This document shows, one piece after another, positions 6,182 to 23,826 of a stretch of DNA of 64,000 nucleotides; position 1 is the first letter of the stretch; each line of letters begins with the position of its first letter. The notes beneath the pieces were generated by a model. That model had not been told where the DNA came from. It was given only the letters and a program-made list of their open reading frames with translations, and did not search any database. The stretch is taken from NCBI RefSeq assembly GCF_034387475.1, contig NZ_JAXCIL010000001.1, positions 930,001-994,000 of the forward strand, read 5' to 3'. Position numbers and translations under genes: made by a program. The DNA comes from Pseudomonas sp. Teo4 (lineage in GTDB: Bacteria; Pseudomonadota; Gammaproteobacteria; Pseudomonadales; Pseudomonadaceae).

Positions 6182-7087
6182 TCAGACCTGGAGCATGCAG
6201 GCGTTCAGGTCTTCGAGAAATGCCTGCAGGATCGGTGGTGGTGAGACCCCGCGCCGGGTAATGACATCGAACGGAGAAGTCAGGTCCAGCGTGCTGGCGC
6301 CCAGGCGGCGCATGTCACCGGTCTTGACCCACTGCTCGGCGAAATGCACCGGCAGGAAGCCGATGTAGGCGCCGGAAATGATCAGGATCGCCGCCGCCTC
6401 AATGTTCTCCACGGTGGCCGCGGCCTTGCTCACGCCCAATTGCTCCAGGTCGTACTGCTGCATGTAGCCGCGCACGACGATATGGCAGTTGCGAACCTCT
6501 TCCAGCAGGCGCCCGTTCGCCGCCTTGCTGGCATACAGCGGATGGCGGCGGCCACAGTAAAGCCCAAGCCCCTCGTCATAGAGCGGCAGGTAGGACAGCC
6601 CCGGAACGCGCAGGGGAAAGTGGCCGATGGCCAGGTGCAGCCGGCCGTCCAGCACGCGCTCTTCCAGCTCTGCCGGGGCGCCGATGTAGATGTGCAGGTG
6701 GGCATCGTGCCCGCGCGAGACGAAGCGCTGGGTGGTGCGCGGCAGCGGCGAGGCGGCGTCGGTCAGGGTGGAGTCGATGATGCCGAGGTTGAGCTTGCCG
6801 CTGATGTGCTGCTTGAGCACGTCGGCGTCCATGCAGAAGCTTTCCACTGCGCTGAGCAGGCGCAGCGTGGCCTCATGAATGGCCACGCCTTGCTCGGTCA
6901 GGCGAAAGCCGCTGCGCCCGCGTTGGCACAGCTTGACCCCCAGGCGGGTCTCCAGGTGCGTCATCTGTTCGCTGATGGTCGATTGGCCGGCGTTGAGCGC
7001 AGCCTGCGCTGCGGAAAATCCACCACATTTGACGATGGTGGTGAATACCCTGAGCAGCTTCAGGTCGACGTCGTGGAGCTGGATCAA
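6182..7087 (-). CDS. LysR-family transcriptional regulator
   Basis: This is a 301-residue LysR-type regulator. The N-terminal winged helix-turn-helix contains FSAAQAALNAGQSTISEQ, and the remainder is the effector-binding domain. I choose a TTG start at 7087 because GGGAGG (7098-7093 on this strand) lies five bases before it. A GTG at 7111 has no comparable SD. It is divergent from the ureohydrolase cluster beginning at 7337, the classic arrangement for a LysR activator and its target. An inverted repeat in the shared promoter region is a candidate binding site. The inducer is unknown; a guanidino compound or its product would fit the neighbours. Confidence 0.85.
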   Translation of the reverse strand: MIQLHDVDLKLLRVFTTIVKCGGFSAAQAALNAGQSTISEQMTHLETRLGVKLCQRGRSGFRLTEQGVAIHEATLRLLSAVESFCMDADVLKQHISGKLNLGIIDSTLTDAASPLPRTTQRFVSRGHDAHLHIYIGAPAELEERVLDGRLHLAIGHFPLRVPGLSYLPLYDEGLGLYCGRRHPLYASKAANGRLLEEVRNCHIVVRGYMQQYDLEQLGVSKAAATVENIEAAAILIISGAYIGFLPVHFAEQWVKTGDMRRLGASTLDLTSPFDVITRRGVSPPPILQAFLEDLNACMLQV

Positions 7088-7201
7088 CAGTGCCTCCCGG
7101 CCGGCGTTCACATCCGCCTTGGCGATGTGAACATGCCTGCATTGTTTTTTCCCAAGCTAACCATGCGCTTGTGACCACTGCAATGGGCGACTGACGCGCG
7201 C

Positions 7202-7232: not shown

Positions 7233-7336
7233 CTGCACTTGCGCATTTTTCCCACTCCCGCCTGGCTCCATAGTGGCTGCAACGGTGGTCGAGTACTCGC
7301 CCCGTCTCCTGACCAGAACAATAAGTGGAGAAACCC

Positions 7337-8308
7337 ATGGCAAAGCACGGTTATGAATCCGGCCGCCTGAACCTGCCCTTCGTGGGCCATTGCACCTTCG
7401 CCAAGTCCCCTGTGTGCACCGACTGGGCGGCGATCAATGCCGATGTCGCGATTCTTGGCGCCCCCAACGACATGGGTACCCAGTGGCGTTCCGGCGCACG
7501 TTTCGGGCCACGCGGCATCCGCGAGGCATCGACCCTGTTCTCCTTCGGCCATGCCGGCGCCTACGACTTCGAAGACGACGCGACCTACCTGACCGATGAC
7601 CAGCTGCGCATGGTCGATGTCGGTGACGCCGACATCGTGCATACCGACATGGCCACCAGCAACGCCAACATCGAATCGGCCGTACGGCAGATTCTCGCGG
7701 CCGGTGCCATGCCAGTCGTGCTGGGCGGTGACCATTCGATCCATGCCCCTGTGATCAAGGCGTTTGAAGGGCGCGGGCCGATCCACATCGTGCATTTCGA
7801 CGCCCACCTCGACTTCGTCGACGAGCGTCATGGCGTGCGCTACGGCCATGGCAGCCCGCTGCGCCGGGCCTCGGAGCTGGACCATATCGTCGGCATGACC
7901 CAGCTGGGTATCCGCAACGTGTCGTCCTCCAACCGTGACGACTACGATGCCGCCCGCGAGGCCGGCTCGCAGATTCTCTCGGTGCGTGACGTGCGTCGCC
8001 TGGGCTGCGAAGGCGTAATGGCGAAAATCCCCGAGGGCCGCGATTACTACATCACCATCGACATCGACGGTTTCGACCCCTCCATCGCGCCGGGCACCGG
8101 CACGCCGAGCCACGGCGGTTTCCAGTACTACGAAGTGCTGGAAATCATCCAGGCGCTGGCCCGCCGCAGCCAGGGCCGGATCGTCGGCATGGACCTGGTG
8201 GAAGTGGCCCCGGCCTACGACCCGGCGGGCGTTACCTCGATCCTTGCCGCGCAATTGCTGATGAACAGCATCGGTTTCATCTTCCACGCGCGCGCCAACG
8301 CTCGCTGA
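7337..8308 (+). CDS. Agmatinase/guanidinobutyrase-family ureohydrolase
   Basis: This 323-residue enzyme belongs to the binuclear manganese ureohydrolases, which release urea from guanidino compounds. Metal-ligand motifs are GGDHS, DAHLD and DIDGFDPS, followed by PGTGTP. The loop HGSPLRR matches the agmatinase/guanidinobutyrase branch rather than arginase. The ATG at 7337 follows GTGGAG, so an in-frame GTG at 7325 is part of the SD and not the start. It heads a cluster with an aldehyde dehydrogenase, a permease and a GMC dehydrogenase. Agmatine, 4-guanidinobutyrate, 3-guanidinopropionate or a related acid are possible substrates; sequence alone does not decide. Confidence 0.85.
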   Translation: MAKHGYESGRLNLPFVGHCTFAKSPVCTDWAAINADVAILGAPNDMGTQWRSGARFGPRGIREASTLFSFGHAGAYDFEDDATYLTDDQLRMVDVGDADIVHTDMATSNANIESAVRQILAAGAMPVVLGGDHSIHAPVIKAFEGRGPIHIVHFDAHLDFVDERHGVRYGHGSPLRRASELDHIVGMTQLGIRNVSSSNRDDYDAAREAGSQILSVRDVRRLGCEGVMAKIPEGRDYYITIDIDGFDPSIAPGTGTPSHGGFQYYEVLEIIQALARRSQGRIVGMDLVEVAPAYDPAGVTSILAAQLLMNSIGFIFHARANAR

Positions 8309-8323
8309 CCCGGAGACCTTACA

Positions 8324-9832
8324 GTGGACAACAAGGTAAAAGCCTACCTGCAGGCCTACGGCATTTCCGAGGCCACCCAGCGTTTTCTCGCCAAGCCCCA
8401 GCGCATGTTCATTGGCGGGGCCTGGCTGGAGGCCAGTGACGGTGTCAGCGCCGAAGTCATCGAGCCTTCCACCGAGGCTGTGCTGACGCGCATCCCGATG
8501 GGCACCCGTGACGACCTCGACCGCGCCGTGCGTGCCGCCCGCGAGCAGTTCGATGGCGGCGCCTGGAGCCAGCTCAAGCCGCTGGAGCGTGAACGCCTGA
8601 TCCACCGCCTGGCCGACCTGATCGAAGCCAACGCCGATGAGCTGGCGCAGATCGAGTCCATCGACATGGGCAAGTCGGTCGCCCAGGCCCGTGCCGTCGA
8701 CATTCAAGGCACGGTCGATACGCTGCGCTACTTCGCCGGTTGGGCCAGCAAGATCCATGGCCGTACCGTCGAGCCTTCGCTGCCGGGCAACTACCTGGCC
8801 TATACCCGCAAGGAGGCGGTGGGCGTGGTGGGGGCCATCGTGCCCTGGAACTTCCCGCTGCAGACCATGGCCTGGAAACTGGGCGCGGCACTGGCGACCG
8901 GCTGCACTGTGGTGGTCAAGCCGGCGGAGCTGACGTCGCTGTCTGCCCTGCGTTTTGCCGAGCTGGTACAGGCGTCGGGCATTCCCGATGGCGTGATCAA
9001 CATCGTGACCGGGCGCGGCAGCGTGGTGGGCGAGGCGATGTCCAGCCACCCGGGCATCGACAAGCTGAGCTTCACCGGCTCAACGCCGGTAGGCTGTTCG
9101 GTGGGCAAGGCGTCGATGGACCAGATGAAGCGCCTGACCCTGGAGCTGGGCGGCAAGTCGCCGGTGATCGTGTTCGCCGATGCCGATATCGACGCCGCAG
9201 CCGAGGCGGTGGCCAATGGGGTGTTCTTCAACTCGGGGCAGGTGTGCGACGCCGGCACCCGGGCCTATGTCGAACGCAGCGTCTACCCGGCGTTCCTCGA
9301 AGCGTTGGCCCGCTACACCGCCACCTTGAAGATTGCCCCCGGCCTGGACCCGGACTGCTTCATCAGCCCCATGGTGTCGCGTCAACAACAGCAACGCGTG
9401 CTGGACTACATCGCCCTGGGCAAGGCTGAAGGGGCGCAGGTGTACTACGGTGGCGAGCCAGTCGAGGGCCCGGGCTTCTTCGTGCAGCCGACGATCTTCG
9501 CCAACTGCAGCAATGACATGCGCATCGTGCGCGAGGAAATCTTCGGCCCGGTGCTGGTGACCACGCCCTTCGACAGCCAGGAGCAGGCACTGGAACTGGC
9601 CAACGACTCGGACTTCGGCCTGGCGGCGGCGATCTACTCCAACGACCTGGGCAAGGTCCACGGGCTGATTCCGCGCCTGCGCGCCGGCACCGTTTACGTC
9701 AACGCCCACAGCACCCTGGACCCGTCCATGCCATTCGGTGGCTACAAGCAGTCTGGCTACGGCAAGGACATGGGCGCAGAACAACTGGAGTTCTTGCTGG
9801 AGACCAAGGCGGTCTGGATCACCTTGCCCTGA
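8324..9832 (+). CDS. NAD(P)-dependent aldehyde dehydrogenase
   Basis: This 502-residue aldehyde dehydrogenase has catalytic Cys308 (NSGQVCDAG), general base Glu274 (LELGGKS) and the nucleotide-binding stretch around PWNFPLQ (174-180). It oxidises an aldehyde to a carboxylic acid in the cytoplasm. The GTG start at 8324 has CGGAGA about eight bases upstream. It lies 15 bp behind the ureohydrolase, almost surely in the same transcript. In context it may make a guanidino acid from the aldehyde produced by the GMC enzyme, or oxidise an aminoaldehyde. It resembles the betaine/gamma-aminobutyraldehyde dehydrogenase group, but substrate is not assignable. Confidence 0.85.
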   Translation: MDNKVKAYLQAYGISEATQRFLAKPQRMFIGGAWLEASDGVSAEVIEPSTEAVLTRIPMGTRDDLDRAVRAAREQFDGGAWSQLKPLERERLIHRLADLIEANADELAQIESIDMGKSVAQARAVDIQGTVDTLRYFAGWASKIHGRTVEPSLPGNYLAYTRKEAVGVVGAIVPWNFPLQTMAWKLGAALATGCTVVVKPAELTSLSALRFAELVQASGIPDGVINIVTGRGSVVGEAMSSHPGIDKLSFTGSTPVGCSVGKASMDQMKRLTLELGGKSPVIVFADADIDAAAEAVANGVFFNSGQVCDAGTRAYVERSVYPAFLEALARYTATLKIAPGLDPDCFISPMVSRQQQQRVLDYIALGKAEGAQVYYGGEPVEGPGFFVQPTIFANCSNDMRIVREEIFGPVLVTTPFDSQEQALELANDSDFGLAAAIYSNDLGKVHGLIPRLRAGTVYVNAHSTLDPSMPFGGYKQSGYGKDMGAEQLEFLLETKAVWITLP

Positions 9833-9930: not shown

Positions 9931-10110
9931 ATGAACAGCCAAGTGGATGTCGAGCGAGCGCAAGACCTGGAAAGGCGCCTGCGCGCCTATGAAGAACTGG
10001 AGGGCAGGGCGCATTGGCCTGGCGCCCTGGGCGTGGGCGACGTTGTCGCGTTGGCCCTGCTGGTGCTGGTGATGGTCGCCGGGGCGTATTGCCTGGGAGG
10101 CCAGCCATGA
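9931..10110 (+). CDS. Small single-pass membrane protein, possible permease partner
   Basis: This 59-residue protein has a charged N-terminal half (VERAQDLERRLRAYEELEGR) and one hydrophobic helix at about 37-55 (GDVVALALLVLVMVAGAY). An SD-like GAGGTG precedes the ATG at 9931; an in-frame GTG at 9922 is an alternative. Its stop codon overlaps the permease start as ATGA at 10107-10110, implying translational coupling. Small membrane proteins encoded directly before a transporter often serve as accessory subunits. That role is inference, and I know no named family for it. Confidence 0.65.
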   Translation: MNSQVDVERAQDLERRLRAYEELEGRAHWPGALGVGDVVALALLVLVMVAGAYCLGGQP

Positions 10111-11576
10111 GCGCCTCCAGAGAGCAGGAGTTTCGCCTGAGCGCGGAACGTGGCGACACCCCGTTGTTGCCCAATGAGCGGGTCTGGGGCTTCTGGGGCT
10201 TCGCCTATGCCAACTCGGCGCTGGCGGTGGCCACCTGGGTGTTTCTGATCGGCGGTGCCACCGCGCTGTTCGTCGGCCCCCTGCAAGGGATCGCGGCGAT
10301 CGTCATCGGCAACATCATCGGCGTGGTGCTGGCCGCCGCGTCCACCTGCCTGCCGTGCGGCAAGTACGGCGTCGAGCAGTTCACCTTCCTGCGCAGCATG
10401 TTCGGCCTCAACGGCAGCCGCTTGGTCTACTTCCTCTCGGTGGTGGTGCTGACCATGGGCTGGCTGGCGGTACTGGGGCTGATGTGCGGGCGCGCGCTGG
10501 ACAACCTGGAAACCCTGGTGCAACACAGCCAGCCGGACGGTGATGGCTGGCTGGTGACCGCCGGTGCCTTGCTGGCCATCGTGCTGGCAGCGTTGGTAGC
10601 CATGCGCGGGCCGGACATGATTCGTCGGCTGAGCGCGGTGATCGCCCCGAGCCTGATCCTGATCATGCTGGCGCTGATGTACTTCATTTCCCGGCGCTAC
10701 AGCCTGGACGAGCTGTTGGCCATGCCGCCACTGCAACCCCCGTTCGAGAACCCGCACGTCAACTTCATGATCGCGGTGGAAATCAACATTGCCGCAGGGT
10801 TCTCCTGGTGGCCCTACATCGGCAACCTGTCGCGCCTGTGCAGCAACCAGCGTACGGCGTTCTGGCCCAACCTGGTGGGGATCTTCGGCGCGGCCTCGCT
10901 GGGCGAGTCGGTCAGCCTGTTCGCCGCCACCACACTGGGCAGCAGCGACCCCACCGCCTGGATGCGTCTGGCCGGTGGCCTGGGGTTCGGCGTGGTGGCC
11001 CTGAGCTTCCTGGCGCTGGCCAACCTCACGGGCATGGTCAACATCCTCTACACCGCTGTCATCGGCCTGCGCCAGCTGGCCGGGGAGCGTCTGCGCAGCA
11101 TGGGCTGGGGGATACTGATCGCGCTGTTCTGCATCATCCCGGTGGTGATCGTGGTGTTCCTCCCGGGCATCTACGACGGCTTCTTCATCTTCCTGGTGTG
11201 GACCTCCGCGCTCAACAGCGCCCTGGCCGGCATCGGCATCGCCGATTACTTCTTCCTGCGCAAGCAGCGCCTGAACCTGCGCCACCTCTATGCCGAGCAA
11301 AGCGGCTCGCCGTTGCGCTTCTGCAAGGGCTTCAACCCCATCGCGCTGGTGGCGCTGGTGGCGGGCTTCGCGATCTACGTGGTGGTGTTCAACCCACAGA
11401 CCCTGGCCCATACCGACTTCTTCACCTTCGCCACGGCTTCGCTGCCGTCCTGCCTGCTGGCCGGGCTGGTGCACTACAGCCTGACCCGACTACTGGCGGC
11501 GCGCCTGGGTTGGGGTGGCTACCCAAAGGGCAATGAACGCAACCTCGCGGCCTCGGGCCTGCGTGTACAGGACTAG
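10107..11576 (+). CDS. NCS1/purine-cytosine-permease-type transporter
   Basis: This 489-residue inner-membrane protein has about twelve hydrophobic helices. The N-terminal pattern ([20 protein letters not shown]) and later [14 protein letters not shown] resemble the nucleobase-cation-symport-1 (CodB-like) family. Members import cytosine, purines, allantoin, hydantoins, thiamine or related compounds with H+ or Na+. GGGAGG precedes the ATG, which overlaps the upstream small gene by 4 bp. Its position between an aldehyde dehydrogenase and a GMC dehydrogenase, behind a ureohydrolase, suggests it imports the substrate of this cluster, probably a cationic or guanidino molecule. Confidence 0.8.
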
Positions 11577-11580
11577 AACC

Positions 11581-13266
11581 ATGAACAAGCGATACGACTA
11601 CATCATCATCGGCGCAGGCTCTGCCGGCTGCGTCCTGGCCAACCGCCTGACCGAAGACGCCGGCACCTCGGTGCTGGTCCTGGAGTTCGGCGGCAGCGAC
11701 CGCAGTGTGATCATCCAGATGCCCAGTGCGTTCTCCTTGCCGATGAACACCAAGAAGTACAACTGGCACTACGAGACCGTGGCTGAGCCGCACCTGGACG
11801 GCCGACGCCTGCACTGCCCTCGGGGCAAGGTGCTGGGTGGCTCGTCGTCGATCAATGGCCTGGTGTACATCCGTGGCCATGCCTGCGACTTCGATGAGTG
11901 GGAAAGCCTGGGCGCGAAAAACTGGAGCTACCGCAATTGCCTGCCGTACTTCAAGCGTGCCGAGAACTACAAGTTCGGTGGCGATGACTACCGGGGTGGC
12001 GCAGGGCCGCTGTCGACCAACAATGGCAACAACATGCAGAACCCGTTGTACGGTGCCTGGGTGCAAGCCGGGGCCGAGGCTGGCTATATCAAGACCGACG
12101 ACTGCAACGGTTACATGCAGGAAGGTTTCGGGGCCATGCACATGACGGTCAAGGATGGCGTGCGCTGGTCCACCGCCAATGCCTACCTGCGCCCGGCCAT
12201 GAGCCGGCCCAACCTGACGGTGGTCACCCACGCCATGACCCGGCGCATCCTGCTCGATGGCAAGCGCGCGGTAGGTGTGGAGTACGACGAGGGCGGCCAG
12301 ACCCACAAGGTCTACTGCAACCGCGAGGTGCTGGTTTCGTCCGGACCGATCGGCTCGCCGCACCTGCTGCAGCGCTCGGGCATCGGCCCCGAGGCGGTGC
12401 TCAAGCAGGCGGGTATCGAAGTGCGTCACCACCTGCCGGGGGTGGGTGAAAACCTTCAGGACCATTCGGAAATCTACATCCAGTACGCCTGCAAGGAACC
12501 GGTGACCCTGAACGGCAAGATGGGCCTGCTGGGCAAGGCGATGATCGGCCTGCGCTGGCTGCTGTTCAAGGATGGCCTGGGCGCCAGCAACCACTTCGAG
12601 GCCGGTGGCTTCATCCGCTCGTCCAAGGGGCTGCGTTGGCCGGACATCCAGTTCCACTTCCTGCCGGCAGCCATGCGCTACGACGGCGATAAACCGTTCA
12701 AGGGCCACGGCTTCATGGTGCTCACCGGGCCGAACAAGCCCAAGAGCCGAGGCCATGTGCGGGCGCTGTCGGCCGACCCGTACCAGCATCCGCAAATCCG
12801 CTTCAACTACCTGGAGAGCGAAGAGGACCGCGAGGGCTTCCGCCGCTGTGTGCGGCTGACCCGCGAAATCATCGCCCAGCCGGCCATGGACCGTTTCCGT
12901 GGCGAGGAGCTGGCGCCTGGGCCGCAGGTACAGACCGACGAGCAGATCGACGCCTTCGTGCGCGCCAACATGGAAAGCACCATGCACCCCTGTGGCTCTT
13001 GCCGCATGGGCGAGGACGACATGGCGGTGGTCGATTCGGCGCTGCGTGTGCGTGGTCTGCAGGGGCTGCGGGTGATCGACTCCTCGGTGTTCCCGAGCGA
13101 GCCCAACGGCAACCTCAACGCGCCGACCATCATGCTGGCCGAGCGCGCCGCCGACCTGGTGCGCGGGCGCGAGCCGCTGGCGCCGCTCGATGTGCCGGTG
13201 GGGCTGGTAGGGGGATGGGAGGAAGATCAGCGCAGCCGCGCGCCGGTGCGCAAGGTAGGCGCCTGA
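11581..13266 (+). CDS. GMC-family FAD alcohol dehydrogenase (choline dehydrogenase-like)
   Basis: This 561-residue flavoprotein has the N-terminal FAD motif GAGSAG (11-16), the GMC signature region [13 protein letters not shown] and a C-terminal catalytic pair of probable His469 (MHPCGSC) and Asn513 (NGNLNAP). The family oxidises primary alcohols to aldehydes and is related to choline dehydrogenase BetA. The ATG at 11581 is five bases after the permease stop, so it is the last gene of the cluster. It lacks betI/betB neighbours, so I do not call it betA. With the aldehyde dehydrogenase it would convert an alcohol to an acid; the ureohydrolase would then remove urea. Confidence 0.85.
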
Positions 13267-13507: not shown

Positions 13508-13525
13508 TGGACCGAATACGCTCCA
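13508..13525. promoter_or_regulatory. GcsR-like site 1 upstream of cycA
   Basis: TGGACCG-AATA-CGCTCCA has the 7-4-7 inverted-repeat form known for P. aeruginosa GcsR sites (TGTAACG-N4-CGTTCCG). Its right half is identical to sites found before gcvH. Confidence 0.7.
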
Positions 13526-13526
13526 A

Positions 13527-13544
13527 TGGAGCGATTTCGCTACA
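13527..13544. promoter_or_regulatory. GcsR-like site 2 upstream of cycA
   Basis: TGGAGCG-ATTT-CGCTACA is centred exactly 19 bp after site 1. The same 19-bp spacing recurs before gcvH. Confidence 0.7.
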
Positions 13545-13608
13545 GGTTAGCCAAGCGCAACGTTCACGACGCTCAGGCCTAAGGAACAGCCTGATTGGCC
13601 CTCATATC

Positions 13609-13626
13609 TGGAGCGACTTCCTTACA
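13609..13626. promoter_or_regulatory. GcsR-like site 3 upstream of cycA (degenerate right half)
   Basis: TGGAGCG-ACTT-CCTTACA has a perfect left half and a weaker right half. It is centred 82 bp after site 2 and about 63 bp before the -24 element. Confidence 0.55.
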
Positions 13627-13677
13627 GCAAAAATAAACATCGTTCGATAAAACACCGGTATTTACGGTGTTTCACCC

Positions 13678-13694
13678 TTGGCATAGTCCTTGCT
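13678..13694 (+). promoter_or_regulatory. Sigma-54 promoter of cycA
   Basis: TTGGCATAGTCCTTGCT matches the -24/-12 consensus TGGCAC-N5-TTGCW. The GG (13680-13681) and GC (13692-13693) are separated by ten bases as required. The ATG of cycA follows about 100 bp downstream. Confidence 0.85.
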
Positions 13695-13795
13695 CTTTCC
13701 CTTGCGTTCGGCCGGGTTCTGGAAGTTGTTTGCCCGGTTCAAGTCGTTGAACTTGTGACGTTATAAAAACAATTAAACCAGCAAGGTAAAAGACA

Positions 13796-15220
13796 ATGAA
13801 TAACTTGCCCCATGGTCACCGTCCGCCTGATGGTGAAGCGCACGAACTCAAACGCAACCTGTCCAACCGCCATATTCAGTTGATCGCCATCGGTGGCGCC
13901 ATCGGAACCGGCCTGTTCATGGGCTCTGGCAAGACCATCAGCCTGGCGGGTCCTTCGATCATCTTCGTCTACATGATCATCGGCTTCATGCTGTTCTTCG
14001 TCATGCGGGCCATGGGCGAATTATTGCTGTCCAACTTGAAGTACAAATCGTTCATCGATTTTTCCGCCGACCTGCTGGGGCCATGGGCCGGCTTCTTTAC
14101 CGGCTGGACTTACTGGTTCTGCTGGATTGTCACCGGTATTGCCGACGTTATTGCCATTTCCGCCTATTCGCAGTTCTGGTTCCCGGACATTCCTCTATGG
14201 ATGCCGGCGTTGGCGTGCGTTGGCCTGTTGCTCACGCTCAACCTGATGACGGTCAAGATGTTCGGTGAAATGGAGTTCTGGTTCGCCATGATCAAGATCG
14301 TCGCCATTTGCGCCCTGGTCTGCACTGGGTTGTACATGGTGGCTGCGGCCTATCAGTCGCCGGCAGGGCAGGTGGCGTCGCTGGCCAACCTGTGGAATGA
14401 CGGCGGGATGTTCCCCCACGGCGCCATGGGGTTCTTCGCCGGCTTCCAGATTGCAGTGTTCGCCTTCGTCGGCATCGAACTGGTGGGCACCACTGCCGCC
14501 GAAACCAAGAACCCTGAACGTAACCTGCCACGGGCGATCAACTCGATTCCGGTGCGCATCATCGTCTTCTACGTGCTCGCGCTGGTCGCCATCATGGCCG
14601 TTACACCCTGGCGCGAGGTCGTGGCCAACAAGAGCCCCTTCGTCGAACTGTTCGTCCTGGCCGGCCTGCCAGCAGCGGCAGGGGTCATCAACTTCGTGGT
14701 GCTCACTTCGGCCATGTCGTCGGCCAACAGCGGCGTGTTTTCGACCAGCCGCATGCTCTACGGTCTGGCGATGGATGGCGATGCACCGGGCAAGTTCGGC
14801 GCGCTGTCCAGCCGTGCCGTGCCGTCCAATGGCCTGATCTTTTCCTGTGTGTGCCTGACGGGTGGGGCGCTGGTCATCTACCTGGTGCCAAACATGCTCG
14901 ATGCCTTCACCCTGATCACCACGGTATCGGCACTGCTGTTCATGTTCGTCTGGTCGATCATCCTGCTGTCGTACCTGGCGTACCGCAAGCAGCGTGATCA
15001 ACTGCATCGTGCGTCGAAGTACAAGATGCCGGGCGGTACGGTCATGTGCTGGGCATGCCTGGCGTTCTTCGCCTTCCTTCTGGGGTTGCTGGCCCTGGAA
15101 GCCGACACCCGCACTGCGCTGTACCTGGTGCCGGTCTGGTTTGCGGTGTTGGGCCTGGCCTACCGTTCGATCCGTCAGAAGAAACAGGAGACCGTGCAGT
15201 TGTCGTTCGACGCCGATTGA
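13796..15220 (+). CDS. cycA: D-serine/D-alanine/glycine permease (CycA type)
   Basis: This 474-residue amino-acid permease of the APC superfamily has about twelve membrane helices and the helix-1 motif GGAIGTGLF (33-41). The sequence, including LSNRHIQLIAIGGAIGTGL and FSADLLGPWAGFFTGWTYW, is that of CycA, which imports glycine, D-alanine and D-serine by proton symport. SD AAGGT precedes the ATG. It sits next to gcsR and upstream of the glycine-cleavage operon. It has its own sigma-54 promoter and three GcsR-like sites, so uptake and cleavage of glycine are probably induced together. Substrate range beyond glycine is inferred from the family. Confidence 0.88.
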   Translation: MNNLPHGHRPPDGEAHELKRNLSNRHIQLIAIGGAIGTGLFMGSGKTISLAGPSIIFVYMIIGFMLFFVMRAMGELLLSNLKYKSFIDFSADLLGPWAGFFTGWTYWFCWIVTGIADVIAISAYSQFWFPDIPLWMPALACVGLLLTLNLMTVKMFGEMEFWFAMIKIVAICALVCTGLYMVAAAYQSPAGQVASLANLWNDGGMFPHGAMGFFAGFQIAVFAFVGIELVGTTAAETKNPERNLPRAINSIPVRIIVFYVLALVAIMAVTPWREVVANKSPFVELFVLAGLPAAAGVINFVVLTSAMSSANSGVFSTSRMLYGLAMDGDAPGKFGALSSRAVPSNGLIFSCVCLTGGALVIYLVPNMLDAFTLITTVSALLFMFVWSIILLSYLAYRKQRDQLHRASKYKMPGGTVMCWACLAFFAFLLGLLALEADTRTALYLVPVWFAVLGLAYRSIRQKKQETVQLSFDAD

Positions 15221-15244
15221 TCGGCACATTCATGTGTTGCCCAA

Positions 15245-15284
15245 GGGGGACGGTGCAGGCGCGCTGTCCCCCTGTCGTCTTTTT
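15245..15284 (+). terminator. Probable imperfect terminator between cycA and gcsR
   Basis: GGGGGAC (15245-15251) pairs with GTCCCCC (15266-15272) across a 14-base loop. A T5 run sits at 15280-15284, seven bases beyond the stem. The displaced T-run suggests partial termination, which could let some cycA transcripts continue into gcsR. Confidence 0.5.
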
Positions 15285-15302
15285 GCCAAGCAGGGAATTT
15301 TG

Positions 15303-16835
15303 ATGAGAATCCACGTCACCTTTGTCGACCGTGTCGGCATCACTCAGGAAATCCTGGCGCTGCTTGGGGCGCGCAACCTCAACCTGGACGCGGTGGAAAT
15401 GATTCCGCCGAACGTCTACATCGATGCTCCGACGCTGTCTCCAGTGGTGCTGGATGAGCTCTACGCAGCGCTGCTGCGGGTGGTGGGTGTGCAGGAGGTG
15501 GCACTGGTCGACTTCCTGCCCGGCCACCGCCGACGCCTGCAGTTGGAGGCCTTGCTGGCGGCGATGAGCGACCCGGTGCTGGCGGTGGACCCCAGCGGCC
15601 ATGTGCTGCTGGCCAATCCGACCCTGGTCAGCCTGGTAGGGCGCGAGCCTGCGGGTGAGCCGTTGTCGCGGTTGTTTGCCGAGCCGGACCTGGCACAGAC
15701 CCTGCTCGACAAAGGCTTTCGCCTGCCCATGTGTGAGGTGAGCTTCCAGGAGCAGTCGTTGCTGCTGGAGGCTACGCCCATCAGCGGTGGCGCCGATGGC
15801 CTGGTGGGCGGCTTGCTGACCTTGTACCCGCCCAGCCGCATCGGCGAGCGCCTGGCCTCGCTGCTGCATGACAATGCCGAAGGGCTAGGGGCATTGCTGG
15901 GCGAGTCGGCGGTTCTCAAGGCGTTCAAGGCACGCCTGCACAAGGTGGCGAGCCTGGAGGCGCCGCTGCTGATCCAGGGCGAGACTGGCACCGGCAAGGA
16001 GCTGGTGGCCCGCGCCTGCCATGGGCTCAGTGCCCGGCGCGATGCTTCGTTCCTGGCGCTGAACTGCGCGGCGTTACCCGAGAGCCTGGCCGAGAGCGAG
16101 CTGTTCGGCTACGCCGCTGGCGCCTTTACCGGCGCCCAGCGCGGCGGCAAGCCGGGGCTGCTGGAATTGGCCGATGGCGGTACGGTGTTTCTCGATGAAG
16201 TGGGCGAGATGTCGCCTTACCTGCAGGCCAAGCTGCTGCGCTTTCTCAATGACGGCAGTTTCCGCCGGGTCGGCGGCGGCAGCGAGGTGCGGGTGAATGT
16301 GCGGGTGGTCTGCGCCACCCACCGCAACCTGGAAAACATGGTGATCGACGGCAGCTTCCGCGAAGACCTTTACTACCGCCTCAACGTGTTGAACCTGAAG
16401 GTGCCACCGCTGCGCGAGCGCGGCAAGGACATTCTGCTGCTGGCCGAGCACTTCCTGCGCCAGGCCTGTGCCCAGATACAGCGCTCGCCGTGCCGGCTGG
16501 CGCTGGCCACCCATCCGCTGCTGCTGGGCAATCGCTGGTCGGGCAACGTGCGCCAGTTGCAGAACGTGATCTTCCGCGCCGCAGCCATCAGTGAAGGGGA
16601 GGTGATCGACTGCGACGACCTGGAGTTGGCCGGCACGGCGTTGAACAGCCAGCAACCCGACGGGCTGGAAATCGTCAGCCTCGAAGCGGCCGTGCAGGCG
16701 TTCGAAAAATCCCTGCTGGAAAAACTGTACGAGAGCTACCCCTCGACCCGGCAGCTGGCCGTGCGTCTGCAGACGTCCCACACGGCTATCGGCCAGCGTC
16801 TGCGCAAGTACGGCATCGCCAGTCGAGTCTCGTAG
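15303..16835 (+). CDS. gcsR: TyrR-like sigma-54 enhancer-binding activator of glycine cleavage
   Basis: This 510-residue regulator starts at an ATG behind CAGGGAA. An ACT-like domain (1-72) and a PAS-like domain (about 75-190) are followed by an AAA+ sigma-54-interaction domain. That domain has Walker A GETGTGKE (226-233), the sigma-54 loop GAFTGA (273-278) and Walker B VFLDEVGE (295-302). A TyrR-type helix-turn-helix closes the protein ([23 protein letters not shown]). The domain order and position before gcvH-gcvP-glyA-gcvT match P. aeruginosa GcsR, which activates that operon in response to glycine. The intact GAFTGA loop and Walker motifs mean it should activate rather than only repress. 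It lies 82 bp after cycA on the same strand. Confidence 0.9.
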
Positions 16836-16841
16836 CCGGCC

Positions 16842-16859
16842 TGGTTCGAATACGCTCCA
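16842..16859. promoter_or_regulatory. GcsR-like site 1 upstream of gcvH
   Basis: TGGTTCG-AATA-CGCTCCA has the 7-4-7 layout. Its right half is identical to cycA site 1. It begins seven bases after the gcsR stop codon. Confidence 0.7.
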
Positions 16860-16860
16860 C

Positions 16861-16878
16861 TGGAGTGATTGTGCTCCA
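16861..16878. promoter_or_regulatory. GcsR-like site 2 upstream of gcvH
   Basis: TGGAGTG-ATTG-TGCTCCA is an inverted repeat centred 19 bp after site 1, the same spacing as at cycA. Confidence 0.7.
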
Positions 16879-16941
16879 CCTGGCCGTGGGCCGCGTGCCC
16901 AGTGGCTGGCCCCGTCGGCAGTGTTGGCCAGGTTCGAGCAG

Positions 16942-16959
16942 TGGAGCGAATACGCTCCG
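16942..16959. promoter_or_regulatory. GcsR-like site 3 upstream of gcvH
   Basis: TGGAGCG-AATA-CGCTCCG is the best match to the motif. It is centred 81 bp after site 2 and about 77 bp before the -24 GG of the sigma-54 promoter. Confidence 0.75.
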
Positions 16960-17024
16960 CTACAACGACCTCCAATTAGCTGCCTTTTATTCGTAACCTA
17001 TTGATAAATATAAATAAAAACATA

Positions 17025-17041
17025 TTGGCATTGCTCTTGCT
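17025..17041 (+). promoter_or_regulatory. Sigma-54 promoter of the gcvH operon
   Basis: TTGGCATTGCTCTTGCT fits the -24/-12 consensus, with GG (17027-17028) and GC (17039-17040) ten bases apart. The AT-rich stretch 16985-17024 between site 3 and the promoter could bend, for example with IHF; that part is inference. Confidence 0.88.
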
Positions 17042-17096: not shown

Positions 17097-17474
17097 ATGA
17101 GCACTCTGCGTTTTACTCCCGAACACGAATGGCTGCGTCTGGAAGCGAGTGGCGAGCTGACCGTTGGTATCACCAGCTATGCCCAGGAAGCCCTGGGTGA
17201 TGTGGTGTTCGTGCAGCTGCCGGAGCCGGGCGAGTACGGGGAGGGCAATGAGGTCGCAGTGCTCGAATCGGTCAAGGCCGCCAGCAACATCACCATGCCT
17301 TTGAACGGCACCGTGGTGGCCGTCAATCAGGCCCTGGCCGACGACCCTGAACTGGTCAACGCTTCGCCCATGCAGGACGGCTGGTTCTTCCGAATTCAGG
17401 TGAGCAACCCCGCCGATCTCGACACGCTGATGGACCAGGACGGCTACGACCGCTTCCTGGCCGACAACGCCTGA
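17097..17474 (+). CDS. gcvH: Glycine cleavage system H protein
   Basis: This 125-residue protein carries the lipoyl domain that shuttles the aminomethyl group between P, T and L proteins. The lipoylated residue is Lys60 in [18 protein letters not shown] precedes the ATG at 17097; a longer open frame upstream overlaps the promoter and is rejected. It is the first gene of gcvH-gcvP-glyA-gcvT-lipA, driven by the sigma-54 promoter at 17025. Length is normal for GcvH. Confidence 0.95.
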
Positions 17475-17488
17475 GCCCGGGTGCTGCC

Positions 17489-20359
17489 ATGAACAACGCA
17501 TCCATCCCGCTGGGCACCGCCAACGAATTCATCGCCCGTCACATCGGCCCACGCGAAAGCGATGTCGAGGCAATGCTGGCGCTGACCGGGCATGACTCGC
17601 TCGACGCGCTGATCGAAAGCGTCATTCCCGCCAGCATCAAGGGCACCAGTGTGCTCGAACTGACGGCGGGGCAGGGCGAAGCAGAGGCCCTGGCCGCCCT
17701 CAAGGCGATTGCGGCGAACAACCAGCTGTATCGCAACCACATCGGCCAGGGTTATTACCCATGCCATACCCCGACGCCGATCCTGCGCAACCTGCTGGAG
17801 AACCCGGCCTGGTACACCGCGTACACGCCCTACCAGCCGGAGATCTCCCAGGGTCGTCTTGAAGCGTTGCTGAATTTCCAGACCCTGGTCAGCGACCTGA
17901 CCGGCATGGAAATCGCCAACGCCTCGTTGCTCGATGAAGCCACCGCGGCCGCCGAGGCCATGACTTTCTGCAAGCGCCTGGCGAAGAACAAGGCGCCGGC
18001 GTTTTTCGCCTCCCGCCATTGCCACCCGCAGACCCTGGATGTGCTGCGCACCCGTGCCCAACCGCTGGGTATTGAAGTTGTCGTAGGGGATGACGCGGCA
18101 CTGGCCGAGCAGAGCCTCGACGGCTACTTCGGTCTGCTGCTGCAGTACCCAGCCAGCACCGGTGAAATCGCCGACCACCGCGCCCTGGTGCAGCGCGCTC
18201 ATGCAGCTGGCGCTCTGGTGTCGGTGTGCGCCGACTTGCTGGCCCTGACCTTGCTGACCCCACCGGGAGAATTCGGTGCCGACGTGGTGCTGGGCAGTGC
18301 CCAACGCTTCGGCGTACCGCTGGGCTTTGGTGGCCCGCATGCGGCGTACTTCGCCACCCGCGATGCGTTCAAGCGCGACATGCCCGGGCGCCTGGTCGGT
18401 GTGTCCATCGACCGCTTCGGCAAGCCGGCCCTGCGCCTGGCCATGCAGACCCGCGAGCAACATATCCGCCGCGAGAAAGCCACCAGCAACATCTGCACCG
18501 CGCAAGTGCTGCTGGCCAACATCGCCAGCATGTACGCCGTCTACCACGGCCCTGAGGGCCTGACACGCATCGCCCGGCGGGTGCACCGTCTCACCGCCAT
18601 ACTGGTGCAGGGGCTGCGCCAGCTTGGGCATCAGGTGGAGCAGGCGCACTTCTTCGACACCGTCAGCGTGGTGACCGCAGGGCCGGTGACCGCTGTGCTC
18701 GCCGCCGCCGACACCGCGCGGTTGAACCTGCGCCTGATCGACGATGTGCGGGTTGGCCTGTCGCTGGATGAAACCTGCGAGCAGGACAGCGTCGAGGCGC
18801 TGTGGCGGGTGTTTGCTGCGTCTGGCCAGACGCTACCGGACTTCGCTGCCCTGGCGGCCGATGGTGTGGATTGCCTGCCATCGGCGCTGCTGCGCGATAC
18901 GCCCTTCCTGCAGCATCCAGTGTTCAACCGCTACCACTCGGAAACCGAACTGATGCGCTACCTGCGTCGCCTGGGCGACAAGGACCTGGCCCTGGACCGC
19001 AGCATGATCGCGTTGGGGTCGTGCACCATGAAGCTCAACGCCGCCAGCGAGATGATCCCGATCACCTGGCCGGAGTTCGGCGCCTTGCACCCGTTCGCCC
19101 CGGCCGGGCAGTCGCTGGGGTACCGCCAGCTGACCGATGAACTGGAGGCGATGCTGTGCGCTGCCACCGGCTATGACGCCATGTCGCTGCAGCCCAACGC
19201 CGGTTCCCAAGGCGAATACGCCGGCCTGCTGGCCATACGCGCCTACCACGCCAGCCGTGGCGAGGCGGGGCGCGATGTGTGCCTGATCCCGTCGTCGGCC
19301 CATGGCACCAACCCGGCGACGGCGCAGATGGCCGGCCTGCGGGTGGTGGTGGTCAACTGCGACGAGCGCGGCAATGTCGATGTGGCCGACCTGCAGCGCA
19401 AGGCCGAGCAGCACAAGGACCAGTTGGCCGCGTTGATGATCACCTATCCCTCGACCCATGGCGTGTTCGAGGACGGCATCACCCGCATCTGTGACATCGT
19501 TCATGAGTGCGGCGGCCAGGTGTACCTGGATGGCGCCAACATGAACGCCATGGTCGGCCTGTGCGCGCCGGGCAAGTTCGGCGGCGACGTGTCGCACCTG
19601 AACCTGCACAAGACCTTCTGCATTCCCCACGGCGGCGGAGGCCCCGGCGTCGGCCCGATCGGGGTCAAGGCGCACCTGGCGCCGTTCCTGCCCGGTCACG
19701 GTCATCTGGAGAACCCGCAGGGCGCGGTGAGTGCGGCGCCGTATGGCAGTGCCAGTATCTTGCCGATCACCTGGATGTACATCCGCATGATGGGCGGGGA
19801 AGGGCTCAAGCGTGCCTCGCAGCTGGCGATTCTGAGTGCCAACTACATTGCCCGGCGCCTGGAGGAGCACTACCCGGTGCTGTACACCGGTGAGAACGGC
19901 CTGGTGGCCCACGAGTGCATTCTTGACCTGCGCCCGCTCAAGGACAGTAGCGGCATCAGTGTCGAGGACGTGGCCAAGCGGCTGATCGACTTCGGTTTCC
20001 ATGCTCCGACCATGTCGTTCCCGGTGGCCGGGACGTTGATGGTCGAGCCGACCGAAAGCGAGTCCAAGGAGGAACTGGACCGCTTCTGCGACGCGATGAT
20101 CTGCATCCGCGAGGAAATCCGCGCGGTGGAGAACGGCACGCTGGACAAGCTCGACAACCCGCTGAAGAACGCACCGCATACCGCCAGCGAGCTGGTGGGC
20201 GAATGGCCGCATCGTTATGACCGGGAATTGGCGGTGTATCCGCTGGCTGATCTGCGCGAGCACAAGTACTGGCCGCCGGTGGGGCGTGTGGACAACGTCT
20301 ATGGCGACCGCAACCTGGCTTGTGCTTGTCCGCCGATGTCGACCTATCAGGACGCCTGA
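17489..20359 (+). CDS. gcvP: Glycine dehydrogenase (decarboxylating), P protein
   Basis: This 956-residue PLP enzyme decarboxylates glycine and loads the remaining aminomethyl group on lipoyl-GcvH. It is the full-length single-chain form with two related halves. The PLP lysine is Lys708 in [17 protein letters not shown], followed by the glycine-rich loop. It starts 14 bp after gcvH in the same operon. All key regions are present and no frame break is visible. Genomes of this group often carry a second gcv set elsewhere, so this is probably the inducible catabolic copy. Confidence 0.95.
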
Positions 20360-20428: not shown

Positions 20429-21682
20429 ATGTTCATTAAAAGCCTCACCCTGTCCGACTTCGACCCAGCACTGTCCGAGGCCATCCACCGCGAAGTGCAG
20501 CGTCAGGAAGACCACATCGAGCTGATCGCCTCGGAAAACTACACCAGCCCGCAAGTGATGCAGGCTCAGGGCACCGAGCTGACCAACAAGTACGCCGAAG
20601 GTTACCCGGGCAAGCGCTACTACGGTGGTTGCGAGCATGTCGATGTGGTTGAGCAACTGGCCATCGACCGCGCCAAGCAGCTGTTCGGCGCAGCTTACGC
20701 CAACGTCCAGCCGCATTCCGGTTCGCAGGCCAATGCGGCGGTGTACCTGGCGCTGCTGCAGGCCGGCGACACCATTCTGGGCATGAGCCTGGCCCACGGC
20801 GGCCACCTGACCCACGGCGCCAAGGTCAGTGCCTCCGGCAAGTTGTACAACGCCGTGCAATACGGCATCGATGACCATGGCCTGATCGACTACGACGAAG
20901 TCGAGCGCCTGGCCGTTGAGCACCAGCCGAAAATGATCGTCGCCGGATTCTCCGCCTACTCCCAGGTGCTGGACTTCCCGCGTTTCCGGCAGATCGCCGA
21001 CAAGGTCGGTGCCTACCTGTTCGTCGACATGGCCCACGTCGCCGGCCTGGTGGCGGCAGGCCTGTATCCCAACCCGCTGCCTTACGCCGATGTGGTCACC
21101 ACCACCACCCACAAGACCCTGCGCGGGCCGCGTGGCGGTTTGATTCTGGCCAATGCCGACGCGGAGCTTGAGAAAAAACTCAACGCAGCGGTGTTCCCAG
21201 GCGGGCAGGGTGGGCCGCTGATGCATGTGATCGCGGCCAAGGCGGTGTGCTTCAAGGAAGCCCTGGAGCCTGGGTTCAAGGATTACCAGCAGCAGGTCAT
21301 CAACAACGCACAGGCCATGGCACAGGTGTTCAAACAGCGTGGTTTCGACGTGGTCTCGGGCGGTACCGAAAATCACCTGTTCCTGGTCAGCCTGATCCGC
21401 CAGGGCATCACCGGCAAGGACGCCGACGCCGCGCTGGGCCGTGCGCACATCACGGTGAACAAGAACGCCGTGCCCAACGATCCGCAGTCGCCGTTCGTCA
21501 CCTCTGGCCTGCGCATCGGCACCCCGGCGGTGACCACCCGAGGCCTCAAGGAGCCAGAGTGCCGCGCATTGGCGACCTGGATCTGCGACATCCTCGACCA
21601 CCTCGGCGATGCCGACGTCGAGGCCCAGGTGGCTCGGTCGGTGGCCAAGCTGTGCGCGGAACATCCGGTCTATCGCGGCTGA
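20429..21682 (+). CDS. glyA: Serine hydroxymethyltransferase
   Basis: This 417-residue PLP enzyme interconverts glycine plus methylene-tetrahydrofolate and serine. PLP contacts are Asp200 and His203 (FVDMAHVAG) and the Schiff-base Lys229 ([14 protein letters not shown]). SD AAGGA precedes the ATG. Placement between gcvP and gcvT means that the one-carbon unit from one glycine can convert a second glycine to serine for catabolism. It is probably one of several glyA copies in the genome. In P. aeruginosa an L-serine dehydratase gene follows glyA2; here gcvT follows directly. Confidence 0.95.
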
Positions 21683-21702
21683 ACTGATCAAGGGAATCAT
21701 CC

Positions 21703-22827
21703 ATGTCCACAGAACAACTGCTACACACTCCCTTGCATGCCCTGCACCTTGAACTGGGCGCGCGCATGGTGCCCTTTGCCGGTTACGCCATGCCGGTCCA
21801 GTACCCGCTCGGTGTGCTCAAGGAACACCTGCACACGCGCGAGCAGGCCGGCCTGTTCGACGTCTCGCACATGGGGCAGATTCGCCTGCGCGGCGCCGCT
21901 GCCGCCAAGGCGCTGGAAGCGCTGGTGCCGGTCGACATCATCGACTTGCCGGTGGGCATGCAGCGCTATGCGCTGTTCACCAATGAAGACGGCGGCATCC
22001 TCGACGACCTGATGGTCGCCAACCTGGGCGATGACGAGTTGTTTCTGGTCGTGAACGCCGCCTGCAAGGACCAGGACCTGACCCACCTTCGCCAGCATCT
22101 GGAAGGGCAGTGCGAGGTTGAGTCGCTGTTCGACAGCCGCGCCTTGCTCGCTCTGCAGGGGCCGGCGGCGGCCAAGGTCCTCGGGCGTTTGGCGTCCCAG
22201 GTCGGCAGCATGACGTTCATGCAGTTCGCCCAAGTGAAGCTGCTGGGGGTGGACTGCTACGTCAGCCGCTCGGGCTACACCGGTGAGGACGGCTATGAAA
22301 TCTCCGTGCCAGTGGACGCTGCGCAAATGCTCGCCCGTGCGCTGCTGGCCGAGCCCGAAGTCGAGGCCATCGGCCTGGGCGCCCGTGATTCGCTGCGCCT
22401 GGAGGCGGGTCTCTGCCTGTACGGGCATGACATGGAGCCACGTACCACGCCGATCGAAGCCAGCCTGACCTGGGCGATTTCCAAGGCTCGGCGTGCGGAC
22501 GGTGTGCGTGCCGGTGGCTTCCCAGGTGCCGAACGCATCTTTGCCCAACAGCGCGACGGCGTGGCCAGCAAGCGCGTGGGCCTGCTGCCCAAGGAGCGCG
22601 TGCCGGTGCGTGAAGGGGCGTTGATCGTTGATGCCCAGGAACAGGTGATCGGCCGTGTCACCAGCGGTGGTTTCGGCCCGAGCCTGGGCGGGCCGTTGGC
22701 GATGGGCTACGTGCAGAGCGCGTTTGCGGCGCTGGAAACGGAAGTCTTCGCCCAGGTGCGCGGCAAGCTCGTGCCGATGCACGTGGTGCGCACACCGTTC
22801 GTGGCGCAACGTTACTACCGTGGCTGA
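21703..22827 (+). CDS. gcvT: Aminomethyltransferase, T protein
   Basis: This 374-residue folate-dependent enzyme moves the methylene group from aminomethyl-GcvH to tetrahydrofolate, releasing ammonia. Typical T-protein segments are GLFDVSHMGQ near the N-terminus and SRSGYTGEDGYEI in the middle. CAAGGGAA precedes the ATG. It lies 20 bp after glyA and 24 bp before lipA. Length and motifs are those of an intact GcvT. Confidence 0.95.
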   Translation: MSTEQLLHTPLHALHLELGARMVPFAGYAMPVQYPLGVLKEHLHTREQAGLFDVSHMGQIRLRGAAAAKALEALVPVDIIDLPVGMQRYALFTNEDGGILDDLMVANLGDDELFLVVNAACKDQDLTHLRQHLEGQCEVESLFDSRALLALQGPAAAKVLGRLASQVGSMTFMQFAQVKLLGVDCYVSRSGYTGEDGYEISVPVDAAQMLARALLAEPEVEAIGLGARDSLRLEAGLCLYGHDMEPRTTPIEASLTWAISKARRADGVRAGGFPGAERIFAQQRDGVASKRVGLLPKERVPVREGALIVDAQEQVIGRVTSGGFGPSLGGPLAMGYVQSAFAALETEVFAQVRGKLVPMHVVRTPFVAQRYYRG

Positions 22828-22851: not shown

Positions 22852-23826
22852 ATGAATGAAACCCAGACTGTCGCCACGCGCCCGCAGCCCCTGCAGGCCG
22901 GGGTGAAACTGCGCGGTGCCGAGAAGGTGGCGCGCATCCCGGTGAAGATCCTGCCCACCGAGGAAGTACCCCGTAAACCCGACTGGATCCGCGTCGAGAT
23001 TGCCACCTCGCCCGAGGTGGCACGGGTCAAGGCACTGCTGCGCAAGCACAAGCTGCACAGCGTCTGCGAGGAAGCCGCTTGCCCGAACCTGGGCGAGTGT
23101 TTCTCGGGGGGGACGGCGACGTTCATGATCATGGGCGATATCTGCACCCGACGCTGCCCGTTCTGCGATGTCGGCCATGGTAGGCCCAAACCGTTGGACG
23201 TCGATGAGCCGAAGAACCTGGCCATCGCCATTGCCGACCTGGGCCTGAAGTACGTGGTGATCACCTCGGTGGACCGTGACGACCTGCGCGATGGCGGCGC
23301 CCAGCACTTCGTCGATTGCCTGCGCGAGATCCGCAAGCTGTCGCCGGGCATTCAGCTGGAAACCCTGGTGCCGGACTACCGGGGGCGCATGGACGTGGCC
23401 CTGGCCATCACCGAACAGGAGCCGCCGGATGTGTTCAACCACAACCTGGAAACCGTGCCGCGCCTGTACCGGGCGGCACGGCCGGGTTCGGACTTTGAAT
23501 GGTCGCTGGACCTGCTTCAGCAGTTCAAGCAACGCATTCCGGGGGTGCCGACCAAGTCCGGGTTGATGCTTGGCCTGGGCGAGACCGACGCGGAGGTGAT
23601 CGAGGTGATGCAGCGCATGCGCGAGCATCAGGTCGACATGCTGACCTTGGGGCAGTACCTGCAACCTTCGCGCAGCCATTTACCGGTGCAGCGCTTCGTG
23701 CACCCGGACACCTTTGCCTGGTTTGCCGAACAAGGTTTGGCGATGGGCTTCAGGAACGTCGCGTCCGGGCCGCTGGTGCGTTCGTCTTACCATGCCGACC
23801 GACAAGCCGGGCAGGTGCAAGGCTAG
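22852..23826 (+). CDS. lipA: Lipoyl synthase in the glycine-cleavage operon
   Basis: This 324-residue radical-SAM enzyme inserts two sulfur atoms into protein-bound octanoyl groups. The auxiliary [4Fe-4S] cluster uses Cys72, Cys77 and Cys83 ([12 protein letters not shown]). The radical-SAM cluster uses Cys98, Cys102 and Cys105 (CTRRCPFC). SD GGAG precedes the ATG. Closing the gcv operon, it should provide lipoyl groups to newly made GcvH. The usual housekeeping lipA of Pseudomonas lies beside lipB, so this is probably a second, inducible copy; that is inference. Confidence 0.92.

Follow-up and report, generated by a model that had tools for sequence, protein, structure and literature searches.

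The 64,000-nucleotide stretch of Pseudomonas sp. Teo4 analysed here (the window: contig NZ_JAXCIL010000001.1, positions 930,001 to 994,000) carries what appears to be a second glycine-use module, in which genes for a glycine-type permease (cycA) and for a TyrR-like sigma-54 activator (gcsR) precede the glycine-cleavage operon gcvH-gcvP-glyA-gcvT-lipA. The activator, which we call GcsR2, is a paralog of a canonical GcsR encoded elsewhere in the same genome, and it has a glycine in its recognition helix (Gly497) that co-occurs with G at position 3 of its half-sites (G3). We think it likely that GcsR2 activates gcvH and, most probably, cycA, that the Gly497/G3 pairing insulates this circuit from the canonical one, and that cycA is a mixed case.

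Under this model dimers of GcsR2 would occupy three 18-bp sites, two of them adjacent and one some 81 bp nearer the promoter, and when glycine is present would form an active hexamer that opens the sigma-54 promoter of gcvH and most likely that of cycA as well; glycine import and cleavage would then rise together. Insulation by Gly497 and G3 arms would act at the two gcvH promoters of the genome. The cycA array has kept T in one arm of its second and third sites, so probably either both GcsRs can read cycA or GcsR2 acts on it more weakly.

Results

Promoter arrays at cycA and gcvH

The initial annotation had placed a sigma-54 promoter, itself preceded by three 18-bp sites, in front of both cycA and gcvH, and our motif scan recovered all of them in the same positions (Table 1), with start-to-start spacings of 19 and 82 bp at cycA and 19 and 81 bp at gcvH. 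The form that had been given for the sites, TGGAGCG-N4-CGCTCCA, describes them only approximately: all six are inverted repeats, but none is perfect, with 1, 1 and 3 mismatches at cycA and 2, 2 and 1 at gcvH. Both sigma-54 sites depart once from TGGCAC-N5-TTGCW, and GG-N10-GC is present at -24/-12 in each promoter.

Taken singly, matches to these motifs are weak evidence, being close to chance. With three mismatches the 18-mer is found 13 times in the window against 7.47 expected (13 or more in 2 of 100 shuffles), and the sigma-54 motif with two mismatches 43 times against 50.56, which is no excess; genome-wide, the 18-mer with two mismatches gives 133 forward matches compared to 98 for a reversed control. 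The combination of sites, however, far exceeds what chance would give. We scanned for a pair of sites spaced by 19 bp, followed after 60–95 bp by a third and then by a sigma-54 site; the scan matched the cycA and gcvH promoters and nothing else in the window. It gave zero matches in random Markov-1 sequence (1.6 Mb, or 1.92 Mb at a looser threshold), and 66 in the window plus 67 related loci (2.35 Mb of strand, with some genomes included twice). The arrays are real and, to judge from their sequence, very likely functional.

The geometry of two adjacent sites plus one had been thought distinctive of this locus, but GcsR-type promoters turn out to have it generally across the sampled Pseudomonadaceae. 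At a threshold of 45, at least one array was found in 84 of 110 GcsR-like rows, the 26 without one including four outgroup rows and some short loci; seven minus-strand loci that gave no usable translation (L031, L032, L044, L045, L048, L049, L052) and genome duplicates (L056, L060, L067, L193, L202) had been left out. The arrays number 93, though as the rows are related these are not independent cases. Downstream lies gcvH in 73, gcvP in three, cycA in nine (all from a single cycA subclade) and, in eight from Betaproteobacteria, none of the window's genes. These arrays were sought with a first spacing of 19 bp; a previous scan, which allowed 18–20 bp, chose 19 bp in 48 of 48 arrays. The second spacing (60–95 bp allowed) is 69–73 bp in 15 arrays and 80–85 bp in 78, and between site 3 and the sigma-54 site (50–110 bp allowed) there are 59 bp in two, 69–71 in nine, 79–84 in 78 and 91–92 in four. 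The gaps from cluster to cluster are about one DNA turn, as read from the clusters without a formal periodicity test, and would allow the geometry of an enhancer built from three dimers to be tested directly.

Two GcsR paralogs with different sites

The window's activator has an AAA+ sigma-54 domain and a TyrR-type helix-turn-helix, scoring over the cut-offs of PF00158, PF18024 and TIGR04381, and its residues 1–115 match the N-terminal structure of TyrR (2jhe); a PAS domain stays below its Pfam cut-off, and the TyrR equivalog model NF008085 below its own (449.6, cut-off 576). Its gene adjoins the glycine-cleavage operon, whose first gene, gcvH, has the three 18-bp repeats and sigma-54 promoter. 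The TGGAGCG half-site had first been read as drift from the TGTAACG of Pseudomonas aeruginosa. This does not hold, since the same genome keeps a canonical GcsR, 72–73% identical to that of the window, whose gene (contig C5) adjoins another gcvH together with gcvP and gcvT and has a TGTA-type 19/81 array. GcsR2 is thus a paralog with its own type of site.

Among 149 genomes of the genus, close relatives of GcsR2 (87–94% identical) occur in five besides the window's own, and these five and the window's genome all carry a further copy at 71–73%. GcsR matches with E below 1e-200 were obtained in 142 of the 149, several of which hold two copies, and the other seven gave weaker matches (about 1e-81 to 1e-114). 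A family-wide search of 148 genomes added 17 loci at 77–92%.

Three TyrR-type helix-turn-helix (HTH) domains in the window's genome exceed the family cut-off, with recognition helices HTAIAQ in canonical GcsR, HTAIGQ in GcsR2 and HTTIAN in the third protein; position 497 is Gly in GcsR2 alone and Ala in the other two. It is also Ala at the matching position of Haemophilus influenzae TyrR, which has the same HTH (PDB ID: 1g2h). In Escherichia coli TyrR, His494 and Thr495 contact the box, and residue 497 of GcsR2 sits one helical turn past His493, the counterpart of that His494. In a quick tree search over the 110 rows, the 27 Gly-type GcsRs, selected by the motif HTAIGQ, fall into one clade that contains exactly these rows (support of 100 in the SH-like approximate likelihood ratio test, SH-aLRT), sister to the group that we call the T-clade (support 91). 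At two positions alone, 214 and 497, do all 27 share a residue that none of the 79 other non-outgroup rows has, and of the two only 497 lies within the DNA-binding domain. The 27 rows stand for 27 loci; two genomes (G259 and G206, those of L199 and L203) each hold two Gly-type GcsRs.

The letters of the sites follow the same division. Position 3 of the half-site is G in 160 of 162 arms of Gly-type gcvH arrays, including all six of the window's gcvH, which do not match TGTAACG. It is T in 199 of 234 arms of the Ala-type rows (group C), in 60/60 of the T-clade and in 42/42 from Betaproteobacteria (seven arrays). These tallies compare G with T only, because the site scoring treats the two alike at position 3 and penalises A and C, and outside the T-clade they leave out arrays scoring below 47, namely one from Betaproteobacteria (L105, with G in one of six arms). 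A plausible explanation would be that the methyl group of the alanine packs on that of the thymine at position 3, and that its loss lets G in.

The mixed array at cycA

Scanning related genomes for the motif and its spacing, as the initial annotation had envisaged, found arrays before both cycA and gcvH in all nine loci of the cycA subclade. Of the 30 cycA loci returned for the genus, the array is present in the window's and in five more of the subclade; the remaining 24 (77–86% identical, with more distant copies outside the scan) lack it. Neither the second cycA of the window's genome nor ten other permease loci of that genome has an array, and a scan limited to the genome's loci around motif matches (22 TGGA-type, 14 TGTA-type) found only the window's two. 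When the DNA upstream of cycA is aligned, few blocks stand out as conserved: the array sites, the sigma-54 site, and a leader that adjoins the start codon.

Sites 2 and 3 of the cycA array are for the most part hybrids of a TGG arm and a TGT arm. Site 1 has G at position 3 of both arms in 9/9 loci; the left arm has G in eight of the nine at site 2 and in all nine at site 3, whereas the right arm has T in seven at site 2 and again in all nine at site 3. We scored each array with Gly-type versus Ala-type matrices built from the gcv arrays (the window's gcvH row being left out for its own score), which gave +22.5 bits for the window's gcvH, -28.5 for the canonical gcvH and -4.6 for cycA, so that the cycA array is intermediate between the two types. 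By site, the window's cycA scores +3.5, -2.1 and -6.0 bits, and the means over the nine loci are +2.9, -1.3 and -4.8; at site 2 the individual values run from -10.6 to +6.4. A regulon joining uptake and cleavage, as proposed initially, remains plausible given arrays at a glycine-type permease and at gcvH that are conserved in relatives; the assignment of one GcsR to both promoters does not follow from them, since the cycA score is intermediate and the genome has two GcsRs.

In two of the nine loci (L074, L075) site 3 and the cycA promoter are separated by 59 bp and not 69–71, a difference of about one turn. The central four bases of cycA site 3 (ACTT) are identical in all nine. The conserved leader, 13747–13775, reads TTGAACTTGTGACGTTATAAAAACAATTA and contains the motif AANAANAA, which we take to be that of Hfq/Crc; the fit of AAAAACAA to it hints at possible catabolite control of cycA by Hfq/Crc.

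Discussion

Relation to known systems

A close known counterpart is GcsR of P. aeruginosa PAO1 (Sarwar 2016, PMC4894688), which binds three such sites, with consensus TGTAACG-N4-CGTTCCG, and activates the gcs2 genes with glycine; the authors took more than 80% identity to it as the criterion for orthologues. As in the window, a TyrR-like activator is encoded next to a gcv operon, and gcvH is preceded by three sites of 18 bp and by a sigma-54 promoter. The window differs in that its activator is a paralog, with Gly497 and TGG-type arms, and in having an added cycA with an array of its own and linked ureohydrolase genes. GcsR of P. fluorescens likewise responds to glycine (PMC10482368). In the TyrR-dadA region of Azospirillum brasilense, which also involves a TyrR-like protein, the target is the amino acid catabolic gene dadA, reported to be preceded by three TyrR boxes and a -12/-24 promoter (PMC6375630). 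TyrR itself differs in its box, TGTAAA-N6-TTTACA (PMC4894688), and in being concerned with aromatic amino acids. The paralogous sigma-54 activators VnfA1 and VnfA3 of Azotobacter vinelandii bind and co-activate the same promoters (PMC9542535), whereas the genome studied here has mixed sites at cycA alone and diverged ones at its two gcvH promoters.

The two-plus-one type of layout and the type of activator were thus known already. Our literature search, mostly of titles and the starts of abstracts, met neither a paralog of GcsR nor control of cycA by GcsR; nor did a paralog with different sites, a recruited cycA or a mixed array appear in what was searched. The locus offers a natural case of duplicated sigma-54 activators that have diverged by one recognition-helix residue versus one base per arm, with both versions within the same genomes, and in which a shared target with mixed sites accompanies the diverged pair.

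Alternative explanations

Several other accounts of the arrays can be given, and most turn on which protein reads cycA. GcsR2 alone might drive both promoters, the T arms at cycA lowering its affinity and so raising the threshold of import above that of cleavage. We regard this as a serious possibility, if somewhat short of an even one: it fits the preference of site 1 for the Gly-type matrix, and the restriction of the array, among scanned cycA loci, to the subclade that has gcsR2 after cycA, but it does not sit well with the right-arm T retained at sites 2 and 3, or with the lean of these sites towards the canonical matrix in the window. More tentatively, the mixed arms could allow both GcsRs to bind, perhaps as mixed hexamers, so that import would be switched on by either circuit or both, while each gcvH answered to its own GcsR by virtue of a one-residue, one-base-pair change. 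That canonical GcsR drives cycA, and GcsR2 only the window's gcvH, would agree with sites 2 and 3 being nearer the Ala-type matrix; the two G arms of site 1 in every locus, and the lack of any array in the 24 scanned cycA loci outside the subclade, make it unlikely. We doubt still more that the cycA array acts mainly on gcsR, as a form of autoregulation by read-through from cycA. The two genes are 82 bp apart on the same strand, but all nine loci have a GC-rich hairpin in the interval, followed by a T run whose quality varies from good to poor.

Two simpler explanations fare worse. A single GcsR, an orthologue of the P. aeruginosa protein with a drifted site, would account for the likeness in site layout and operon type, but is very improbable with canonical GcsR and TGTA-type sites in the same genome and the window's protein in a separate clade. 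That the repeats are chance matches, or REP-like (repetitive extragenic palindromic) elements without a regulatory role, would suit the near-chance numbers of single motifs; with no arrays in random sequence and conserved blocks in the aligned promoters, it is scarcely credible.

Several observations weigh against the reading that we prefer, namely activation of gcvH and most likely cycA by GcsR2 with insulation by Gly497 and G3. As regards insulation, 35 of the 234 Ala-type arms have G at position 3, and the deep-branching Pseudomonadaceae locus L231 (position 7863, with a 69-bp distance from site 3 to the promoter), which is Ala-type with the helix HTAIAK, has G in four of six. An Ala-type GcsR may thus accept TGG arms, and the two circuits may be only partly insulated. 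Conversely, the Gly-type L199 and L203 arrays have one T arm each. The fixity of residue 497 is partly a matter of definition, because the motif HTAIGQ served to define the Gly group, and Gln465 in the DNA-binding domain is nearly as exclusive (27/27 Gly-type versus 2/79 others). Since the changes occur once on the tree, the link between Gly497 and G3 is one event and not a repeated correlation. As regards cycA, its site 3 lies 70 bp from the promoter, compared to 84 bp at gcvH. Between the gcvH array and its promoter, TAACCTATTGATA fits what we take to be the IHF consensus, YAANNNNTTGATW, exactly in five of nine aligned loci and partially in the others, and no such site was seen in the cycA array region; all of these were read by eye. 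The hairpin after cycA weakens a simple co-transcription of cycA and gcsR, and a single cycA–gcsR unit, considered as a candidate, was set aside on this account. Finally, for P. aeruginosa the authors regard only the gcs2 operon as a direct target, its genes alone among those changed having both GcsR and RpoN sites; the list of changed genes given there has no glycine permease, and its transport genes dctA, narK1 and narK2 are not called direct targets (PMC4894688).

Features of the locus and its neighbourhood

The coordinates of all features are collected in Table 1.

Table 1. Features of the second glycine module and adjoining genes (window coordinates)
Feature	Position	Strand	Basis or remark
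LysR-type gene	6182..7111	-	next to ureohydrolase set
ureohydrolase, arginase/agmatinase family	7325..8308	+	profile/structure matches
aldehyde dehydrogenase	8324..9832	+	profile match
NCS1-type permease	10104..11576	+	PF02133; NCBIfam ncs1 below its cut-off
GMC dehydrogenase, choline-dehydrogenase-like	11581..13266	+	TIGR01810 over cut-off
cycA array site 1	13508..13525	+	TGGACCGAATACGCTCCA; array here in 9/9 subclade loci
cycA array site 2	13527..13544	+	hybrid arms TGGAGCG / TGTAGCG
cycA array site 3	13609..13626	+	hybrid arms TGGAGCG-ACTT-CCTTACA
cycA sigma-54 promoter, TGGCATAGTCCTTGCT	13679..13694	+	aligned, conserved in 9/9 loci
AAAAACAA in cycA leader	13765..13772	+	strongly conserved leader
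cycA, D-serine/D-alanine/glycine-type permease	13796..15220	+	NCBIfam NF008272, 881.1 bits (cut-off 732)
intrinsic-terminator-like hairpin between cycA and gcsR	15244..15273	+	GC-rich, folds in 9/9 aligned loci
gcsR paralog, TyrR-like sigma-54 activator, Gly497 in recognition helix	15303..16835	+	profile matches
gcvH array site 1	16842..16859	+	motif scan
gcvH array site 2	16861..16878	+	motif scan
gcvH array site 3	16942..16959	+	motif scan
IHF-like site, TAACCTATTGATA	16994..17006	+	between gcvH array and promoter; read by eye
gcvH sigma-54 promoter, TGGCATTGCTCTTGCT	17026..17041	+	motif scan
gcvH	17097..17474	+	profile match
gcvP	17489..20359	+	profile match
glyA	20429..21682	+	profile match
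gcvT	21703..22827	+	profile match
lipA, lipoyl synthase	22852..23826	+	profile match

On the plus strand the module is preceded by genes for a ureohydrolase, an aldehyde dehydrogenase, an NCS1-type permease and a GMC dehydrogenase, in this order. By a hand tally at least one gene of this set lies near a Gly-type gcsR in 21 of 27 loci, with none near those of L058, L077, L078, L199, L203 and L209; flank lengths differ between loci, and one 40% GMC match was not counted. The corresponding figures are 10/10 for the T-clade and 1/41 (L227) for the other Pseudomonadaceae loci searched. The closest solved relatives of the ureohydrolase are, by name, agmatinase, 3-guanidinopropionase and guanidinobutyrase. 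A literature search on guanidinoacetate and guanidinoethanol brought up a single paper, which deals with a human enzyme. Judging from the enzyme families alone, the two dehydrogenases would convert a guanidino-alcohol to a guanidino acid, from which the ureohydrolase would then release urea and an amino acid, this being glycine if the guanidino acid were guanidinoacetate. The second glycine-cleavage cluster may thus serve glycine from the linked pathway.

The content of the operon varies between loci. A serine dehydratase gene stands between glyA and gcvT in L073 (16461–17852), and none does in the window (21682–21703). No gcvT was matched by tblastn in L054 or L055, and a gcvT-like start was seen by eye before lipA in L054 (11945–12034).

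Some arrays of the wider family stand before other genes. The three at gcvP (L220, L223, L224) are Ala-type, have a second spacing of 70–71 bp and lie directly upstream of the gene with no gcvH match between. Four from Betaproteobacteria (L098, L099, L101, L103), with sigma-54 sites and TGT arms, precede genes for D-amino acid dehydrogenases, all four of which match Pfam DAO, as both of the two tested do the NCBIfam D-amino acid dehydrogenase model. Weaker arrays in Undibacterium (L095 and L096, score 48), included among the seven tallied above, stand before alanine racemase genes. A CycA-like permease (45–46%) is encoded nearby in L098 and L101.

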